A stretch of 64,000 nt of DNA. Origin: Mojavia pulchra JT2-VF2. Its GTDB lineage: Bacteria; Cyanobacteriota; Cyanobacteriia; Cyanobacteriales; Nostocaceae. The notes under the pieces were generated by a model. It was not told the origin of the DNA. It ran no database searches and saw only the letters and a list, made by a program, of their open reading frames with translations. How positions within the stretch are numbered: the stretch's first letter is position 1; the number at the start of each line of letters is the position of its first letter. The stretch lies in NCBI GenBank assembly GCA_019359325.1, contig JAHHHN010000017.1, forward strand, positions 1-64,000, in the 5' to 3' direction. The translations under genes were made by a program, and so were the position numbers. Shown here one piece after another: positions 2,264 through 53,486 of this stretch.

Positions 2264-2556
2264 ACAGTGTATTGTTATGCCTGACAATGCCATTGCATCG
2301 AGTAACAATGCCATTGCATCGCGTAACAATGCGATTGTATCGAGTAACAATGCGATTGTATCGAGTAACAATGTGATTGTATCGAGTGACAATGCGATTG
2401 CATCGAGTAACAATGCCATTGCATCGGGAAACAATGCGATTGTATCGAGTGACAATGCCATTGCATCGCGTAACAATGCCATTGCATCGGGAAACAATGC
2501 AATTGTATCGAGTGACAATGCCATTGCATCGCGTAACAATGCGATTTTCGTGTAGA
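2264..2556. repeat. 21-bp palindromic tandem array 1 (13 units)
   Basis: Thirteen units begin every 21 bp from 2284 to 2536; the last is incomplete and a degenerate unit begins at 2264. Each unit is a 13-bp inverted repeat, ACAATGCNATTGY (arms ACAAT and ATTGT), followed by an 8-bp spacer ATCGRGTR. Variants are distributed as single-base changes in the loop, last arm base and spacer, which suggests unit-wise duplication. Because 21 is divisible by three, most frames on both strands lack stops; this is a by-product, not evidence of coding. The array ends 115 bp before the start of the small protein gene at 2672, on the same side as its promoter. A REP-like palindrome GGGCACAGCATTGCTGTGCCC lies at 2573-2593. 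Confidence 0.9.
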
Positions 2557-2671: not shown

Positions 2672-3046
2672 ATGCCAGCCCAAGATAAAACACGCCGTTT
2701 ACCCCCTCAAGCTATTAGTCAAGATATAACGTCATGGCACGGTTTGCAAACTGTCAGCACCTACGACACAACCCGTGCTGATGCTTCTGTTGCCAAGTTA
2801 CAGCAAACTTATCAAGCAATGTTGGCGCAGAAACAAGCGGAAACAGAGAAATTCACTTTATACCGTGCGGCGGCGGATGCGGCGCGATTAGCAGAATGGG
2901 AATTTCACAATGCTGTATTAGCGATGAAAGAGGTTATCCGTGGGCAATATGGATCGGATAGCGATCAAGCCCAAGCGGTAGGATTGAAGAAAAAATCAGA
3001 ACGCAAGCGTCCTAACCGTAAAAAATCAGTTGCGATCGCAATTTAA
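2672..3046 (+). CDS. Small charged protein with YGxDS motif, downstream of 21-bp array
   Basis: A 124-residue hypothetical protein: a polar N-terminus, a predicted long helix (about residues 40-95, rich in Ala, Gln, Lys and Glu), the motif QYGSDSDQ near residue 105, and a strongly basic tail (KKKSERKRPNRKK) that could contact nucleic acid. I do not recognise a named family. The protein at 44533-44940 shares the same order: helical body, then xYGxDSxQ, a Gly, and an Arg/Lys-rich end. Both genes sit just downstream, on the same strand, of a 21-bp palindromic array. The repeated pairing suggests a functional link (regulation by, or binding to, the array), but this is inference. Confidence 0.8.
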   Translation: MPAQDKTRRLPPQAISQDITSWHGLQTVSTYDTTRADASVAKLQQTYQAMLAQKQAETEKFTLYRAAADAARLAEWEFHNAVLAMKEVIRGQYGSDSDQAQAVGLKKKSERKRPNRKKSVAIAI

Positions 3047-3520: not shown

Positions 3521-6115
3521 ATGAAAATTACTATCCCCGAACTTTCTCTAGTTGTCCTTATCGGTGCTTCTGGTTCCGGTAAATCAACCTTTGCTCGCCA
3601 GCATTTTCAGCCCTTTGAAGTGCTTTCCTCAGACTTTTGCCGGGGGTTGGTTTCTAATAACGAAAATAATCAATCTGCTACTAAGGATGCTTTTGAAATA
3701 TTGCACTTCATTACTGCCAAACGGTTAGCAGCAGGTAAACTGACGGTAATTGATGCTACTAGTGTGCAGATGGAAGACCGCAAACCATTACTGCAAATGG
3801 CAAAACAATATCACTGTTTTGCGATCGCCATTGTTCTCGACCTACCAGAAGAATTATGTCACGAACGCAACCAACAAAGGAGCGATCGCAATTTTGGCCC
3901 TCATGTAGTGCGTCGTCATAGTCAAATGTTGCGGCGTTCTCTGCGGGGTTTAGAAAAAGAAGGATTCCGCTTTGTCTACACTCTCAAATCTCTAGAAGAA
4001 ATTGCATCCGTTGAAATCGAACGTCAACCCCTCTGGAACAACCTCAAACACGAACACGGCCCCTTTGATATCATCGGTGATATTCATGGCTGTGGCGATG
4101 AACTCGAAGCATTATTGCAACAGTTAGGGTATGTAAAGGATGAGGGAGAATTTGCTTTATCATCTGCCCCTGCTCTAATTTGGGATGCTCCCACTTACTA
4201 CCACCCCCAAGGACGCAAAGCTGTTTTCTTAGGTGATTTAGTAGACCGAGGCCCCCGCATCATAGATACACTCAAGCTAGTGCGAAACATGGTTACAGCA
4301 GGTACGGCTCTCTGCGTTCCTGGTAATCATGAACACAAGTTATTGCGGAAACTACGCGGCAAAAATGTCAGAGTTAATCATGGTTTAGAGCAAACCATGA
4401 ATGAAATTGAGGCGTTATCTGATGAAGTGCGCCAACCTTTCACCAAAGAACTGCAAACATTTCTTGATTCTTTAGTCAGCCACTACCTCCTTGATGATGG
4501 GCGGTTGGTGGTGGCGCACGCAGGAATGAAACAAGAAATGCAAGGACGGGGTTCTGGTGCGGTGCGCGAGTTCGCCCTGTATGGTGAAAGTACAGGTGAA
4601 ATTGATGAGTTTGGCTTACCTGTGCGTTACAATTGGGCGGGAGAGTACCGGGGTGAAGCGTTGGTGGTTTACGGTCATACTCCTGTGCCAGAAGCGGAAT
4701 GGCTGAATAATACTATTGATATTGATACAGGTTGCGTGTTTGGTGGCAAATTAACTGCTCTGCGTTATCCAGAAAAGGAACTAGTAAGTGTACCCGCTGC
4801 TCGTATCTACTGCGAACCTGTAAAACCATTAATAGAAAACACCTTTACACGTACATCTCAGCAAGAACTCGATGATGTTTTGCACATTGAGGACGTATTA
4901 GGTAGGCGCATCGTCAAAACTCGACTTCAGCCTAACATTAACATTCGAGAAGAAAATGCGATCGCAGCCCTAGAAGTCATGAGCCGTTTTGCTGCTAATC
5001 CCAAATGGCTGATTTACTTACCCCCCACGATGTCCCCTGTGGAAACATCGCCAATAGCGGGTTTTTTGGAACATCCAACACAAGCTTTTGCTTACTACCA
5101 AAACCAAGAAATTACGCAGGTAGTATGCGAAGAAAAACACATGGGTTCGCGGGCAGTGGTGATTGTGTGCCGGGATTTAGCAGCCGCCGAGAAAAGATTT
5201 GGTGTGGTAAATGAAGGTATTGGTATTTGCTACACCCGCACCGGACGGAGATTTTTTGATGATCCAGCATTAGAAGCGGAACTGTTGACACGGGTGAATG
5301 CTGCCCTTACGCAAAGCAACTTTTGGGAAACATTAAATACCGATTGGGTGTGTTTAGATTGTGAATTGATGCCTTGGTCAGCGAAGGCTCAAGGATTGTT
5401 GCGATCGCAGTATGCACCTGTTGGAGTAGCTTCGCGCCTTGCTCTCAATGATGCCGTATCTTTATTACAACAAGCAAGCGATCGTGGGGTGGAGGTCAGC
5501 AGCCAACTCAGTCACTATCAACAACGGGCAGAAATGGCGCATCATTACGTTGCCGCTTACCGTCGCTACTGCTGGTCAGTTACAGATATTTCTCAACTGA
5601 AACTAGCTCCCTTTCACATTTTAGCAACTGAGGGATCTGTCCATATTGACAAAGACCATCGCTGGCATATGAAGCAAATCGCCACAATCTGCCAGTCAGA
5701 CCCCGCCTTACTCCTAGCTACAGCCTACAAGGTAATAGATTTGACAGACCCTAGCAGTCAGGCAGAGGGCGTTCATTGGTGGGAAGAACTTACCAAAGCT
5801 GGGGGTGAAGGCATGGTTGTCAAGCCGATGCAATTCATCGTCCAAGGTAATCGCGGCTTAGTGCAGCCTGCAATTAAGTGTCGCGGACAAGAATATCTGC
5901 GAATTATCTATGGCCCGGAATACTCAAGTCCTGAGAATCTGCAACGTCTGCGGCAGAGGGGATTATCCCTCAAACGTTCTCTAGCTATGCGCGAGTTTGC
6001 TTTAGGCGTTGAGGCATTGGAGCGATTTGTCGCCAATGATCCTCTGCGCCGCGTGCATGAATGTGTTTTCGGCATTTTGGCATTAGAGAGCGAACCCATC
6101 GATCCACGGCTTTAG
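3521..6115 (+). CDS. pnkp: Bacterial Pnkp: polynucleotide kinase-phosphatase-ligase of the RNA repair system
   Basis: An 864-residue three-domain RNA end-healing and sealing enzyme. The N-terminal kinase has a P-loop GASGSGKST (Lys21). The central metallophosphatase has GDIHGC (Asp187, His189), GDLVDRGP, GNHEHK and YGHTPVPEA. The C-terminal adenylyltransferase/ligase domain has motif I EEKHMGSRA, with Lys539 as the expected AMP-linked residue. In characterised bacteria Pnkp acts with the 3'-terminal methyltransferase Hen1, which activates the ligase, to repair broken RNAs such as toxin-cleaved tRNA. Hen1 is often the neighbour, but neither adjacent gene resembles it, so Hen1 must be elsewhere if present. 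The start ATG 3521 directly precedes the kinase strand; length matches the family. Confidence 0.95.
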   Translation: MKITIPELSLVVLIGASGSGKSTFARQHFQPFEVLSSDFCRGLVSNNENNQSATKDAFEILHFITAKRLAAGKLTVIDATSVQMEDRKPLLQMAKQYHCFAIAIVLDLPEELCHERNQQRSDRNFGPHVVRRHSQMLRRSLRGLEKEGFRFVYTLKSLEEIASVEIERQPLWNNLKHEHGPFDIIGDIHGCGDELEALLQQLGYVKDEGEFALSSAPALIWDAPTYYHPQGRKAVFLGDLVDRGPRIIDTLKLVRNMVTAGTALCVPGNHEHKLLRKLRGKNVRVNHGLEQTMNEIEALSDEVRQPFTKELQTFLDSLVSHYLLDDGRLVVAHAGMKQEMQGRGSGAVREFALYGESTGEIDEFGLPVRYNWAGEYRGEALVVYGHTPVPEAEWLNNTIDIDTGCVFGGKLTALRYPEKELVSVPAARIYCEPVKPLIENTFTRTSQQELDDVLHIEDVLGRRIVKTRLQPNINIREENAIAALEVMSRFAANPKWLIYLPPTMSPVETSPIAGFLEHPTQAFAYYQNQEITQVVCEEKHMGSRAVVIVCRDLAAAEKRFGVVNEGIGICYTRTGRRFFDDPALEAELLTRVNAALTQSNFWETLNTDWVCLDCELMPWSAKAQGLLRSQYAPVGVASRLALNDAVSLLQQASDRGVEVSSQLSHYQQRAEMAHHYVAAYRRYCWSVTDISQLKLAPFHILATEGSVHIDKDHRWHMKQIATICQSDPALLLATAYKVIDLTDPSSQAEGVHWWEELTKAGGEGMVVKPMQFIVQGNRGLVQPAIKCRGQEYLRIIYGPEYSSPENLQRLRQRGLSLKRSLAMREFALGVEALERFVANDPLRRVHECVFGILALESEPIDPRL

Positions 6116-43179: not shown

Positions 43180-43434
43180 ATGACCATACAAATTAACATC
43201 GAACTTCCAAATGATGTTTTTTCAGCACTCCGCAGTAACCCAGAAACGTTTGTTCAAGAGATGCGTTTAGCGGCTGCTGTCAAATGGTATGAAGTTGGTA
43301 TGGTTTCCCAATCCAAGGCTGCTGAAATTGCTGGAGTTAGCCGTCAGCAATTGTTAGAAGCACTCCATCGCTATAATGTTTCACCTTTTCAAGTCACTCC
43401 CGAAGAATTAGCCGAGGAGTTAGCGCGTGACTAG
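43180..43434 (+). CDS. UPF0175 family antitoxin
   Basis: An 84-residue UPF0175 protein: IELPNDVFSALRSNPETFVQ, EMRLAAAVKWYEVGMVSQSK and a helix-turn-helix AAEIAGVSRQQLLEALHRYN. It is the typical antitoxin paired with DUF3368 PIN-like toxins. Its end overlaps the start of the toxin gene by 8 bp, the usual coupled arrangement. It likely also represses the operon. Confidence 0.9.
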   Translation: MTIQINIELPNDVFSALRSNPETFVQEMRLAAAVKWYEVGMVSQSKAAEIAGVSRQQLLEALHRYNVSPFQVTPEELAEELARD

Positions 43435-43912
43435 ACAATGGGTTGTGAATGCCTCGCCATTGATTGTACTAACTAAGGTTAATCAGGTTCATTTGCTCTT
43501 TGAACTCTGTAGTGAGGTTGTCATTCCTAGCGGTGTTGTCCGAGAGATCTGCATTGCACCAGATAATGACCCTGCAAAACTCTGGATTCTAAATGAAGGA
43601 ACTAACTATATTCGAGATGTGGAACAAGTTGATCCAGTGATTGCTGCATGGGGTCTTGGTTTAGGAGAGAGTCACGTTCTCACCTATATATATATAAATC
43701 CTGGCTATGAAGCAATTTTAGATGATCGCGCCGCCAAAACCGCAGCACTTGCTTTAGGAATTCCTGTACGGGGAACTCTAGGTGTTATTCTTCTTGCAAA
43801 ACAGGAAGGTAAGGTAGAAGCCGCTAGACCGATTTTTGAACAACTGATTCAGGTTGGTTTTAGAGTCAGTACGCAAGTTTTGGAATCAGCACTTAGACTT
43901 GTTGGTGAATAG
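43427..43912 (+). CDS. DUF3368 PIN-like toxin
   Basis: A 161-residue PIN-fold (DUF3368) protein, presumed RNase. Conserved parts are VVNASPLIVLTKVNQVHLL (the N-terminal acidic position of PIN nucleases is Asn here, as usual in this family), VVIPSGVVREI, LGLGESHVLTY (Glu) and AILDDRAAKTAALALGIPV (Asp pair). It overlaps the UPF0175 antitoxin gene. A (TA)6 run at 43685-43696 inside the gene encodes TYIYIN; slippage there would shift the frame. A 21-bp repeat array begins 71 bp after the stop. Confidence 0.9.
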   Translation: MTRQWVVNASPLIVLTKVNQVHLLFELCSEVVIPSGVVREICIAPDNDPAKLWILNEGTNYIRDVEQVDPVIAAWGLGLGESHVLTYIYINPGYEAILDDRAAKTAALALGIPVRGTLGVILLAKQEGKVEAARPIFEQLIQVGFRVSTQVLESALRLVGE

Positions 43913-43983
43913 TACATTAGATGTGTTGAACCAGAAACTGCGATCGCAAACTCGCCAACAACAGAAGCCACTATCGTTAAGTC

Positions 43984-44172
43984 AATAGTGGCTATTCTCA
44001 ACTCAGTAGTGGCTATTCTCAAGTCAGTAGCGGCTATTCTCAACTCAATAGTGGCTTTCCTTAACTCAATAGCGGCTATCCTCAACTCAATAGTGGCTTT
44101 CCTTAACTCAATAGCGGCTATCCTCAACTCAATAGTGGCTATTCTCAACTCAGTAGCGGCTTTCCTAAGTTT
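43984..44172. repeat. 21-bp palindromic tandem array 2 (9 units)
   Basis: Nine units begin every 21 bp from 43984 to 44152. Each is a 13-bp inverted repeat AATAGTGGCTATT (arms AATAG and CTATT, loop TGG or CGG) plus an 8-bp spacer CTCAACTC or CTTAACTC. The architecture (13 + 8) is identical to the array at 2284-2548, but the sequence is unrelated. Open frames on both strands are a consequence of the period. It lies 361 bp upstream of the small YGxDS protein gene at 44533. Confidence 0.9.
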
Positions 44173-44345
44173 CCTAAACGCGAAACTCATAGCCCGCCTC
44201 CGAATGAATTCGGAGCCTAATAGCAAAAGTAAGCTAAAGCTAACTAAAAATTATCACTTATCCCCAGTTTACTTTAGTAAACTTTGCCTATTAGCCTTGG
44301 AATTCATTCCAAGGTGGGTAGGTAAGCCTTGCAATGTTGACACAG

Positions 44346-44407
44346 GTGGGCAATGCCATGCCCTCTAGAATATATTGATGTGTCGCAAACATTATTTGAA
44401 TTGGTAT
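44346..44407. repeat. Family E element, truncated copy
   Basis: Right half only: GGTGGGCAATGCCATGCCCT, then CTAGAATATATTGATGTGTC, ending GCAAACATTATTTGAATTGGTAT. It sits between the second 21-bp array and the gene at 44533. Confidence 0.7.
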
Positions 44408-44532
44408 TAGATACCGAAATATTACTGATATTAGCTGAAAATTGTACGTTCAAAAATTGCTATTTATGCTGAACCAGATTTCGATTTAATTAAGGCAAGC
44501 TATGTTTAGAACTATTTTTAAAGGGCAAGTTT

Positions 44533-44940
44533 ATGAGTCGCAAAAAACGTAAATCCAACGTTTTAGAAAAAGTTGAGTCAAGAGCAGCCGGGATGAAATT
44601 GGTCGATCCAACTCTGAAACTGGATGATGATTATAGTCTGGAGAAACTGCTGGAGTCAATGGAACAGTTACGTACTAAACTTGAGGTTCACAATAACGCT
44701 CTGTCTTTAGCTGATTCTTCTTTAACTGAAGTTGAAGAGATGGAGAAAAATTTGACTAAATTTTCTCAAAAGATGCTAATGCTAATTGCTATTAAGTACG
44801 GCACAGATAGCCCTCAATATGAAACAGCAGGTGGTGTTCGAGATAGCGATCGCGTCCGCAAAATGAGGTCGAGCCGCTTGAAAAATGTTGCACAACAAAC
44901 ATCAAATAATAATAGTAAAATCGGGAATTTTAGCGAATAG
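44533..44940 (+). CDS. Small charged protein with YGxDS motif, second copy
   Basis: A 135-residue hypothetical protein. A basic N-terminus (MSRKKRKSNVLEKVESRAAG) is followed by an amphipathic helical body (about 35-90, ESMEQLRTKLEVHNNALSLA), the motif IKYGTDSPQYETAGG (about 96-110) and a basic tail DRVRKMRSSRLKN. It shares the YGxDSxQ motif, the following Gly and the Arg/Lys end with the protein at 2672-3046. I infer one family, although overall identity is low. AAAGGGCAAG precedes the start. Like its relative it follows a 21-bp palindromic array on the same strand. Function unknown; nucleic-acid binding is plausible from charge. Confidence 0.78.
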   Translation: MSRKKRKSNVLEKVESRAAGMKLVDPTLKLDDDYSLEKLLESMEQLRTKLEVHNNALSLADSSLTEVEEMEKNLTKFSQKMLMLIAIKYGTDSPQYETAGGVRDSDRVRKMRSSRLKNVAQQTSNNNSKIGNFSE

Positions 44941-45065: not shown

Positions 45066-45165
45066 ATACCAATCAAATAATGTTTGCGACACATCAATAA
45101 TATTCTAGAGGGCACGGCAGTGCCATGCCCCTACTATCTGTCGCATTCTTTTTTCAAATTGGTAT
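45066..45165. repeat. Family E element, full copy (100 bp)
   Basis: Ends ATACCAATCAAATAATG and CAAATTGGTAT are inverted repeats. The interior carries GGGCACGGCAGTGCCATGCC. This copy is inverted relative to 53381-53486. No coding capacity. Confidence 0.8.
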
Positions 45166-45244: not shown

Positions 45245-46564
45245 TTACCCCATTTTCTGACATCGCTTTCCCGTCCACTTCTCCCATCGCAGAATCCCAC
45301 GGCTGATTAATTCTGGATTCTCGTCACCAGCAAAACAGATCCGCCCCATTCTTTCGCAAGCAATAAGAACCTCACCATGTCCCATAAACGGCGCAATCAC
45401 AAAATTGTTTTGACTGGTATACAAATTAATCAAGTAGTTGACGATGCCCTCTACTCCTTCAACATTAATTGGTGTCTGTGGCTTGGATAGGAATTGCTGA
45501 GAAAAAATTCCTACATAGATGTTGCCTAGCACTAATTCGTATTGAAAGGGCATCTGATTATGCCTGTAGAATTCGTAAATATGCCCTTCCGATCGCAGCA
45601 CAGCTACAACCCTAGCCTCAGAAACTAAATAATTATGATTCCAAGTAGATGAAAGAGTAGCGATCGCCAAAGCTGCATCTGAAGGTAGCAAATTCATGAA
45701 TTCTTGCTGTGCCGTATCACCACAATACACTAGATGTCTTTCCAGCATCCATTCCTGACCAACTTTGGCGATCGCTTGTTTCTCTATTACTTCCTCAGAC
45801 TGACGCTGGGCTTTTTTAAGCAGTAACTTAGTTTCCTTTTCAGCTAAAGCACTTTTGTGCGCCAGCATTTGTAATTCTTTTTGCCTAGCCCTCGCCTCAG
45901 CCACAATTTTAGCTTGGCGTTCAGCTTCTTCTTGATCGCCTTGTCCCTGAGCTAATTTCCAAGCCTTTTGTGCTTCTTCTGCTAAGGCACGTTCTTGACT
46001 ACCAGCCCTTGCTACCTTTAGTAATGCCGTCGGACTGTCGGCGATCGCTGTACCCTTAATAATTTTTTTGACATCTGGGTGAATACTTTTAGCAATCTGC
46101 TTACCGTGCTGAAAGGTACGCTCGGAATATCCCGCTTCTCTTGCTAACTCTACAGTTCTTTTGGGAGGTGGTGAAATCATTTCACCACCTTTGTGGGTAT
46201 GTTGGTTATCCCCGACTTTCGCCCTCAGCCCCATGCGTTCGAGAATTTGATCTCGCTCTAACCACAGTTCTGAGCGCTCTAGAGGCTCTAGTTCATTGCG
46301 GATTAAATTCTCGTCAATCTCTGCTAAACGAGCTTGGTCAGTATCTTGGTAGTTAACAATATTGCACTCAATTGCCACTAACCCCAACAGCTTACAAGCT
46401 GTGAGACGATGTAGCCCCGCAATCAAATTCAGCTTTTGGTCAACTGTAATCGGGTTCAATAGACCATTAGCCTTAATTGATTCCTTTAACTCATCAACTT
46501 TCTCACCCTTTACCGGACGGCGGTTGCGACCAATAAGAATGTGGTCTATGGGCACAATAGGCAT
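45245..46564 (-). CDS. ParB-domain protein fused to a degenerate DNA methyltransferase domain
   Basis: A 439-residue protein. Residues 1-110 are a ParB/Srx domain (VPIDHILIGRNRRPVKGEKV; IKANGLLNPITVDQKLNLIA; GLHRLTACKLLG; ENLIRNELEPLERSEL). A charged helical region follows (about 180-270). The C-terminal third resembles an N4/N6 adenine methyltransferase: HLVYCGDTAQQEF at its start and FVIAPFMGHGEVLIACERMG, ending RGILRWEKWTGKR. The catalytic DPPY tetrad is absent (ATLSSTW stands in its place) and the SAM-binding DPFxGxG is altered to APFMGHG, so it is probably inactive as a methylase. ParB-methyltransferase fusions are typical of phage and mobile elements. Confidence 0.85.
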   Translation of the reverse strand: MPIVPIDHILIGRNRRPVKGEKVDELKESIKANGLLNPITVDQKLNLIAGLHRLTACKLLGLVAIECNIVNYQDTDQARLAEIDENLIRNELEPLERSELWLERDQILERMGLRAKVGDNQHTHKGGEMISPPPKRTVELAREAGYSERTFQHGKQIAKSIHPDVKKIIKGTAIADSPTALLKVARAGSQERALAEEAQKAWKLAQGQGDQEEAERQAKIVAEARARQKELQMLAHKSALAEKETKLLLKKAQRQSEEVIEKQAIAKVGQEWMLERHLVYCGDTAQQEFMNLLPSDAALAIATLSSTWNHNYLVSEARVVAVLRSEGHIYEFYRHNQMPFQYELVLGNIYVGIFSQQFLSKPQTPINVEGVEGIVNYLINLYTSQNNFVIAPFMGHGEVLIACERMGRICFAGDENPELISRGILRWEKWTGKRCQKMG

Positions 46565-46635
46565 AACTACTGTTCTTTAGTGCAGTCAGTTAAAACACCA
46601 ACAATAGCATTAAGATACACCTAATTTCTAGGTTA

Positions 46636-46860
46636 TGGGGCATGGGGCATGGGGCATGGGGCATGGGGCATGGGGCATGGGGCATGGGGCATTGGGCATC
46701 GGGAAGGAGCAAAAGTTATTCATAGTTCCTTCCCCTTGCCCCCCAGTCCCCAGTCCCCAGTCCCCAGTCCCCAGTCCCCAGTCCCCAGTCCCCAATCCCC
46801 AGTCCCCAGTCCCCAGTCCCCAGTCCCCAGTCCCCAGTCCCCAGCCCCCAATCCCCAATC
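46636..46860. repeat. Two heptameric STRR tracts (GGGCATG and CCCCAGT)
   Basis: 46636-46700 holds about nine GGGCATG-type units, and 46738-46860 about seventeen CCCCAGT/CCCCAAT units, separated by a short unique piece. These are STRR-type 7-bp repeats known in heterocystous cyanobacteria. Apparent frames through them (Pro/Gln/Ser or Gly/Trp/Asp) are artefacts. Confidence 0.85.
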
Positions 46861-47499
46861 CCTAACACCTAATTTAATGAGAATGTCTTATGGTACACAA
46901 CTGAGCTAATCACAATCCGTTGATAATAGCTAAAGTCGGTTGATTACCCATAATATTTAGAAATTATATGAGGAAATCTACTCAATCCATATTTACAATT
47001 TCCTCAGCATTTTATCAAAGATATTATGGATATTTAAGGAAAACGTATGCAGCGAAAATCAGTTGACAAATTAAAAGTTTTTTGCCATACTTGAACGAAA
47101 GTTTATCTTAGTTTATTCTGTCATTATTATCAGCGCTTTGTTATTCTTGGATGTCATTATATTGCTAGCGCTACCAGATTTTTAAGTTACTTGAGTCCGT
47201 GTGTGTAGAGGATAAACTGAAAATACTTAAAAGTAGCGCTAATATGAATTTAGTCGCTAAACAAAATTCAAAATTAAAAAAGCTTGTTATATAAGCTTTT
47301 CTCGTAGTCAGAATTGTATCTTTATTTTTGCTGTACTGGTACTAATAATCTGTAGCAGCTAAAAAGGCGTAAAAGAATTCACATACAACTAATTAGACTT
47401 ATCTATTTGTGTACGTAAAAACATTTCAGATAAGTCTACTGTAATCAACTGATATAGCCATTAGGCTAACCCTTGGCATAGCACAATTGGAATGAAAAT
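46861..47499. promoter_or_regulatory. Upstream region of the hgdB-hgdC-hgdA genes
   Basis: About 640 bp without a gene, leading to hgdB. It is probably where the export/tailoring cluster is switched on in developing heterocysts. It contains GTACTGGTAC at 47333-47342 (a short palindrome) but no convincing GTA-N8-TAC NtcA site. The start of hgdB has no strong Shine-Dalgarno. Confidence 0.45.
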
Positions 47500-51132: not shown

Positions 51133-51162
51133 GAACTGGGGACTGGGGACTGGGGACTGGGG
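51131..51162. repeat. Short heptameric tract (GGGGACT)n
   Basis: About four GGGGACT units right at the hgdA stop, of the same heptamer type as 2156-2192 and (as complement) 46738-46860. Confidence 0.65.
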
Positions 51163-51233
51163 GACAAGGAAGAAATGCCCCATGCCCCATGCCCAATCCT
51201 CAATCCCAAAGATTATCTTTAGGAGAATATTAG

Positions 51234-53380: not shown

Positions 53381-53486
53381 ATACCAATTTGAAAAAAGAA
53401 TGCAACAGATGGGTAGGGGTAGGGGCACGGCAGTGCCGTGCCCCTACGAAGAATTTATCTGTCGCAAACATTATTTTAATTGGTAT
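53381..53486. repeat. Family E element, full copy (106 bp)
   Basis: ATACCAATTTGAAAAAAGAA at one end and TTATTTTAATTGGTAT at the other, with GGGGCACGGCAGTGCCGTGC inside. It abuts the GT2 fragment. Confidence 0.8.

Follow-up and report, generated by a model that had tools for sequence, protein, structure and literature searches.

The sequences analysed here suggest that related small basic proteins, each encoded beside its own type of 21-base tandem array in many filamentous cyanobacteria, each recognise their own repeated DNA sites. Our tentative explanation, to which we give a little less than even chances, is that a sequence-specific protein coats its cognate arrays as double-stranded DNA, much as ParR does on parC, and that many such chromosomal sets exist in parallel. 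No description of matched sets of this kind, in which binding is putative, was found in the literature searched, which was mostly open-access.

The array and gene in the window

The window is the whole stretch of DNA that was analysed, 64,000 nucleotides from Mojavia pulchra JT2-VF2, and it holds two such loci (Table 1). A preliminary description had placed nine 21-bp units upstream of a small gene at locus 2, and TRF indeed finds a tandem array there. Eight consecutive units, from 43984 to 44151, differ by at most one mismatch from the degenerate unit, where dinucleotide shuffles lead to an expectation of 0.02 matches. In the 8.19 Mb window genome (G000, 85 contigs) the unit occurs only in its own array and at one site with three mismatches, while the backward control gives three matches.

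The range given in that description, 43913-44940, ends correctly with the gene; its first position, however, is the base after an upstream ORF (43427-43912), and the array starts at 43971. The array does lie upstream of the gene as described, although the distance from the TRF array end to the ORF start is 366 bp and not 361 bp. For the family as a whole the median distance is 176-185 bp, and the imperfect inverted repeat between array and gene may explain why the spacer of locus 2 is longer than usual. The repeat element that had been noticed in this spacer, and described as truncated, is present as a copy of a dispersed repeat. As the partner copy behind the gene is inverted relative to it, the gene is bracketed by two inverted repeat copies; a third copy of the same repeat lies at 53457-53482.

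Table 1 Features of locus 1 and locus 2 in the window.
Feature	Position	Strand	Description
Locus-1 array	2284..2546	+	12.5 copies of 21 bp (TRF); solo arrays of this type on other contigs
Locus-1 gene	2672..3046	+	124-residue remote relative of the locus-2 protein
Locus-2 array	43971..44166	+	Unit ARTAGYGGCTWTYCTYAACTC, 9.3 copies of 21 bp (TRF); distal 5' end of the array-gene cassette
Imperfect inverted repeat	44193..44318	.	Arms of 53 nt, 75% complementary; between locus-2 array and gene
Dispersed-repeat copy	44349..44399	-	Between locus-2 array and gene
Promoter-like motif	44469..44504	+	CTGAACC, 18 bp, GGCAAGCTATG; between locus-2 array and start codon
Locus-2 gene	44533..44940	+	135-residue basic helical protein, locus-2 type
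Inverted partner of the dispersed-repeat copy	45073..45124	+	Behind the locus-2 gene

The promoter-like motif is common to many family members in an alignment of 47 upstream regions (40 displayed) and may act as a promoter. As it sits between the array and the start codon, the transcript probably starts downstream of the array. A scan with the sigma-70 consensus found 4 sites against 3.5 expected, and the shared motif was not among them. Around locus 2, Rfam returned nothing at gathering score (best E 0.013). Two overlapping ORFs before the array (43180-43912) resemble what we take to be a UPF0175/PIN-type toxin-antitoxin pair, and an ORF downstream (45245-46564, minus strand) presumably encodes a protein with a ParB-like N-terminal domain. 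TRF also finds heptamer tandem repeats in the window, at 46635-46862 and 51135-51194 (ATGGGGC, CCCCAGT), which we assume to be of the type known from Nostoc.

The proteins of the two loci had been described as related. They are, but remotely: pairwise BLASTP gives E 0.001; with a profile built without the locus-1 type, the locus-1 ORF ranks second among the window ORFs (E 0.0017, the next at 0.14); and profile-profile comparison is weak (probability 10.5, E 0.003). Together with a paralogue of 81% identity, locus 1 represents a remote subfamily in the window genome.

Association of arrays and genes

The locus-2 protein has 16 matches in the window genome, including two fragments of a single broken copy. 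A profile search detected the family in nine genomes out of 40 (G000 and its relatives), each with 4 to 19 matches. At the level of the order it was detected in 42 of 388 genomes, and at that of the phylum in 28 of 386; with a profile of the locus-1 type, the last count was 24/386. Among the best 80 of 171 relatives are records named as Nostoc, Fischerella, Westiellopsis, Scytonema, Tolypothrix, Chlorogloeopsis and Phormidium. The 163 loci collected for the upstream analysis are redundant, with some contigs present as both G and N loci (e.g., a pair at 100% protein identity), and this should be considered when referring to the counts below. At least 650 bp of upstream sequence was available for 156 of them, and the remaining seven were dropped.

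Upstream of 142 of these 156 loci, tandem arrays were found whose period is near 21 bp or a multiple thereof. Such arrays are far rarer in the far-flank control, where 452 kb contained 22, compared with the 142 in 158 kb of upstream DNA. Of the 22 control arrays, 16 lie in open frames of at least 150 codons, compared with 13 of the 142 family arrays. Downstream arrays were flagged in two rows among the 156 loci, one of them at a gene end. The median array has 9.6 units (76 non-redundant arrays). Upstream arrays are also present at 20 of 28 additional loci, most of them more distant, and absent from the other 8; those with an array include members in other orders of the class.

Array loss accompanies gene decay: the array is kept by two of six broken genes (<100 codons) and by 140 of 150 intact genes (Fisher p 0.0006). 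For two of the ten intact genes with no array within 1 kb, the array is displaced, to about -1.2 kb (L096) and about -3 kb (L114). At L159, the counted array is that of another family gene located upstream. At L158, a 21-bp array of 13.6 copies (GAGTCTTTAATACTCGCGGGA) lies about 3.6 kb upstream of the family gene, with no family gene found near the array, which may be a solo array of another type. Locus-1-type genes present in single copy in eight small genomes (L213-L220) have no array, possibly the ancestral state, and two locus-1-type genes in 3.0 Mb genomes likewise have none. In a far relative (L258, 1320-1510), a 21-bp array instead follows the gene closely. This relative is found on a GC-rich contig that is assigned to a cyanobacterial genome and may not be cyanobacterial; the association may reach other phyla.

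The array and gene behave as a portable cassette. In 18 of 46 close pairs, the homologous stretch starts no more than 60 bp from where the array starts; proteins that are 94% identical are found in unshared contexts, and below 80% protein identity the flanking genes are mostly not shared. No general motif was found upstream of the arrays. Searches for viral and phage relatives returned none, and the plasmid collection gave one match, in a 1.2 Mb replicon of Kovacikia; for the far relative there was no match.

Period, sequence and folding of the array unit

The period of the arrays is constant while the unit sequence is not, as had been proposed from the two loci of the window, and the unit varies by subfamily. 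In 140 arrays the unit length averages 20.94 bp (range 20-21.33), about two helical turns, and composite periods of 41, 62, 63, 82 and 84 bp still come close to 21 bp per unit. On the gene strand, 103 of these arrays have at least one open frame and 37 have none. Coding heptad repeats were rejected on the grounds of the latter arrays and of the periods of 20, 41, 62 and 82 bp; a constant period would fit phasing along the DNA helix better than codons. Curvature by A-tracts was rejected as well, with 58 of 76 non-redundant arrays having less than one A4/T4 tract per two units.

One clustering of the units yields 39 types. Within single genomes nearly each array is its own type, with 63 types, counted genome by genome, for 69 arrays in nine genomes. 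The co-variation of array and protein that had been anticipated was examined in the 85 of 140 arrays with a clean unit (3570 pairs), and it is present: unit identity correlates with protein identity (Mantel r 0.47, reached in 0 of 999 permutations). On the same strand, units agree at about 9.7 of 21 positions when protein identity is low and at 18 of 21 when it exceeds 90%, whereas the reversed-unit control stays flat near 10 of 21 and the reverse complement climbs to 13. In one set of orthologues, which ranges from Fischerella to Phormidium, 10 of the 11 members keep the core TGTCGTTA. However, unit identity is close to, and on average no higher than, identity at fourfold degenerate sites. 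Plain descent yields such co-variation too. A stronger constraint on units than on fourfold sites was not seen on average. Extra divergence between paralogues of one genome was not seen either, as arrays are alike to the same degree within and between genomes at equal protein identity. In some pairs with 85-86% identical proteins, the units are no more alike than the reversed control.

The 13-bp palindrome that had been proposed for the locus-2 unit is not above chance: the stem is of length 4, which 45% of shuffled units match, and the full palindrome is carried by two of the eight listed units and no more. Nor is a conserved palindrome supported as the shared feature of the family: stem lengths over the 39 types average 4.18, compared with 3.56 for shuffled units, a weak enrichment to which locus 2 does not contribute. 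Compared with column-shuffled versions, the arrays of the 39 types fold better on average (mean z -1.12), yet neither strand gains more than the other, and some arrays are nearly structureless. With stems only weakly enriched and folding equal on both strands, an RNA hairpin is not supported as a shared feature.

The protein

The AlphaFold model of the locus-2 protein (pLDDT 85.7, pTM 0.51) predicts helices at residues 9-24, 36-89, 94-98 and 104-130, so that a helix of 54 residues would be followed by a conserved YGxDS turn and two more helices. A 54-residue helix (40-93) is also predicted for the locus-1 protein, at lower confidence (pLDDT 67.8). The family has a median pI of 9.5, with a net charge of +5 in residues 1-22 and again in residues 96-120. 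It is under purifying selection (median dN/dS 0.18, 41 non-overlapping pairs). When pairs whose array has been replaced were compared, with two identity bins matched, residues 1-9 and 105-120 differed more, but so did residues 36-50 and 66-80, a weak signal from pairs that are not independent.

The family libraries offered no consistent family model, only scattered, mostly helical matches among the 25 most frequent families. These results refer to an alignment, A3, of 113 of 115 sequences (L087 and L096 omitted); as it includes one locus-1 protein and its relatives, its matches to the locus-1 type are partly circular. The most frequent Pfam match is HBM, a helical sensor domain, found for 40 of 113 members at E<=0.1 (best 3.6e-10), and these matches probably reflect a resemblance between coiled coils. 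No DNA-binding domain is among the listed family matches, and the fold search gave weak helical matches at most. No transposase appears in the full Pfam and NCBIfam lists of both window proteins or among the 25 most frequent families of the 113 members. RNases of the ToxN/CptN/TenpN type are likewise absent from the full lists of the window proteins and from a comparison of the locus-2 protein with PADLOC. Among the unannotated neighbour ORFs listed at a few loci, no motor or effector gene was noticed.

Solo arrays

Most array types tested recur, in G000 and in the complete genome G006 of another genus, as solo arrays at unrelated intergenic sites. The locus-1 unit forms further arrays at four other places in G000 (60 unit matches in all, against 1 in the control). 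When twelve array pieces were used as queries in G000, which left out two types (L028, L031), solo arrays were found for L021, L023, L025, L026, L027, L030 and the related pair L032/L033, and none for the locus-2 type (W2), L020 or L029. The L034 piece matched arrays of the locus-1 type. For G006, the matches listed include solo arrays of 8 of 12 types, at 28 places at least, and none of the other four; they hold none for L063, whose protein is the nearest relative there of the locus-2 protein (66% identical). The array filter was passed by 20 of 21 places in G000 and by all 28 in G006 (48/49 together), the one failing place being L316 in G000, where a weak 84-bp period is listed.

No family gene was detected near solo arrays in the stretches examined in either genome. 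The neighbouring genes are codirectional in 26 of the 48 rows, convergent in 15 and divergent in 7, without concentration between divergent genes; the orientation at L292 is unreliable, as that row spans three arrays. These three, of the locus-1 type, lie within 2 kb (3774-5723), and the last adjoins an ORF that resembles a REP-associated tyrosine transposase. In G006:C1, the four solo arrays listed for the L072 type lie within 0.22 Mb (2.77-2.99 Mb), a region that also holds the gene of L089, a related type. At 5 of the 48 solo places the match to the cassette of the same type extends beyond the array; at the other 43 no further cassette sequence was found, and no place contains a decayed gene. 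One of the five, L335, still has about 135 bp of the spacer and resembles a cassette whose gene was lost; the match at L334 spans 40 bp in reverse, and three arrays of the L090 type have matches of 30-64 bp.

Solo arrays resemble the linked array of their own type (similarity 0.62) and not those of other types (0.03), a contrast that is partly due to construction, as they were found by their similarity to linked arrays. In all five type pairs compared, the solo arrays of G006 are closer to the linked array of G006 than to that of G000. For the L072 type, where the proteins are 83% identical, the similarities are 0.85 and 0.14, respectively. In G000, the solo arrays of L026 and L032 are likewise closer to their own linked array, and those of L027 barely so, whereas those of L023 and L030 are closer to the linked array of G006. 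One solo array, of the L023/L036 type, occupies the same intergenic site in both genera, with flanking genes that are 91% and 70% identical, whereas no other pair of solo arrays of the same type shares a site between G000 and G006. The conserved position speaks for a function of the site, and the lack of others for turnover.

Possible functions of the arrays and proteins

In the explanation that we favour, each of these small, basic and mostly alpha-helical proteins would recognise its own array type as double-stranded DNA. Proteins would bind side by side on the phased array, which offers about ten sites placed two helical turns apart, with charge at both protein ends contacting DNA and the long helix serving for pairing. 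The array of the protein's own gene would be coated first, with probable control of its expression, and for most types the same protein would also load at solo arrays elsewhere in the chromosome. The outcome would be several parallel protein/site sets per chromosome, distinct in sequence, that could serve chromosome organisation or autoregulation.

This coating of arrays is favoured by the association of array and gene, the period, the co-divergence, the arrays in trans, purifying selection and the basic charge of the proteins. The loss of arrays with gene decay, the lack of strand preference in folding and the spread of solo arrays beyond divergent gene pairs also count for it. Against it count the lack of a DNA-binding domain among the listed matches, the weak fold matches, the ten intact loci without an array within 1 kb, the failure to notice a motor or effector gene among the neighbour ORFs listed at some loci, the types that have no solo array in G000 (locus 2, L020 and L029) and the four types that have none among the matches listed for G006, as do unit identities no higher than those of fourfold sites and the single shared solo position. 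A more ambitious version, which we consider rather unlikely, holds that a chromosome may carry a dozen or so parallel sets of protein and satellite array, each with a private DNA code, a cis array and up to eight or more trans arrays; such sets would diverge like the centromere proteins and satellites of eukaryotes, and would serve to organise or to mark regions of the chromosome in filamentous cyanobacteria.

The strongest rival is a mobile repeat system similar to RAYT/REPIN, somewhat unlikely in our judgement, in which the array is the mobile DNA, the linked array the autonomous locus and the solo arrays its copies, with the protein helping a host enzyme to amplify or move them. The portability of array and gene would be expected of such a system, as would solo arrays at unrelated sites with one position shared between the two genomes compared, the clustering of the listed L072-type arrays in G006, and the scarcity at solo places of the remaining cassette and of decayed genes. 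That the solo arrays of some types are not closest to the linked array of their own genome strengthens this rival and weakens the case for coating. Neither window protein has a transposase match, however, and there is no general motif upstream of the arrays; one solo array has been held in place between genera, and both the period and the presence of an array persist over long divergence, all of which counts against mobility.

It is improbable that the array is an upstream regulatory minisatellite that is bound by some other host factor and sets the expression of an unrelated protein. Although a position upstream of the promoter-like motif and descent together with the gene would suit it, one factor would need to read dozens of unrelated units, and the scatter of solo arrays of the same types over unrelated places, flanked by convergent genes in 15 of 48 rows, does not suit it. 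Still less probable is that the partner is RNA transcribed from the array, whose hairpins the protein would bind in the manner of a type III toxin-antitoxin system. The upstream position and the better average folding are offset here by the equal gain on both strands and the almost structureless arrays. Composite periods that stay near 21 bp per unit, the lack of a general upstream promoter motif and a protein predicted to be all helical also speak against it, and a separate role would have to be assumed for solo arrays that have no gene. That the arrays are coding heptad repeats (21 bases being 7 codons, and most arrays having an open frame on the gene strand) or neutral tandem duplications without function is very improbable, given the arrays without such a frame, the periods that are not multiples of three, the loss of arrays with gene decay and their rarity in far flanks.

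If the proteins read their arrays, they would form a natural library of dozens of protein/DNA-site pairs from one ancestor, in which the evolution of specificity could be studied and from which orthogonal DNA-binding parts might be taken; they would also raise the question of the role that solo arrays play in large cyanobacterial chromosomes. If, instead, the arrays are mobile, they would be a class of repeat element with a partner protein unlike any transposase.

Comparison with known systems

Iteron plasmid origins have direct repeats about two helical turns apart that are bound by the product of the adjacent gene. Unlike in these origins, no Rep protein was found here, and the loci lie on contigs of chromosome size. 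Type III toxin-antitoxin systems have tandem repeats upstream of a small gene; the present loci differ from them in the lack of RNA strand preference, in the all-helical model predicted for the protein and in the solo arrays. The small dispersed repeats of Nostoc treated by Elhai et al. in 2008 are reportedly single dispersed elements. They share with the present repeats that both are short and cyanobacterial, whereas here phased arrays accompany a gene.

In the RAYT/REPIN system, a distinctive single-copy gene lies beside its own repeat type, which is dispersed in the genome, long co-evolution is proposed, and the system is present in Nostoc punctiforme (PMC3116915). On that account, a mobile array system is plausible in Nostoc. 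Dispersed repeats specific to the gene type are found for most types here, locus 2 excepted. REPINs, however, are doublets of hairpins whose movement is attributed to a tyrosine transposase, while the present repeats are phased 21-bp arrays of about ten units, and the 135-residue protein matches no transposase, of the Y1 tyrosine type or any other, in the Pfam and NCBIfam lists.

ParR on parC appears to be the closest working analogue. ParMRC of Clostridium perfringens comprises about ten families with different direct repeats upstream of the operon, ParR ignores noncognate repeats, and ParR of pSK41 uses 20-bp repeats (PMC9426499). As in ParMRC, where the small protein binds DNA, a small protein with putative binding has a direct-repeat array upstream, here at 142/156 loci. 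A ribbon-helix-helix is not visible, as the predicted locus-2 model has no strand of three or more residues, though weak fold matches remain compatible with that family. Unlike in ParMRC, no motor gene was noticed in the few listings of unannotated neighbour ORFs, and the sets described here are chromosomal, number many per genome and are accompanied by solo arrays elsewhere.
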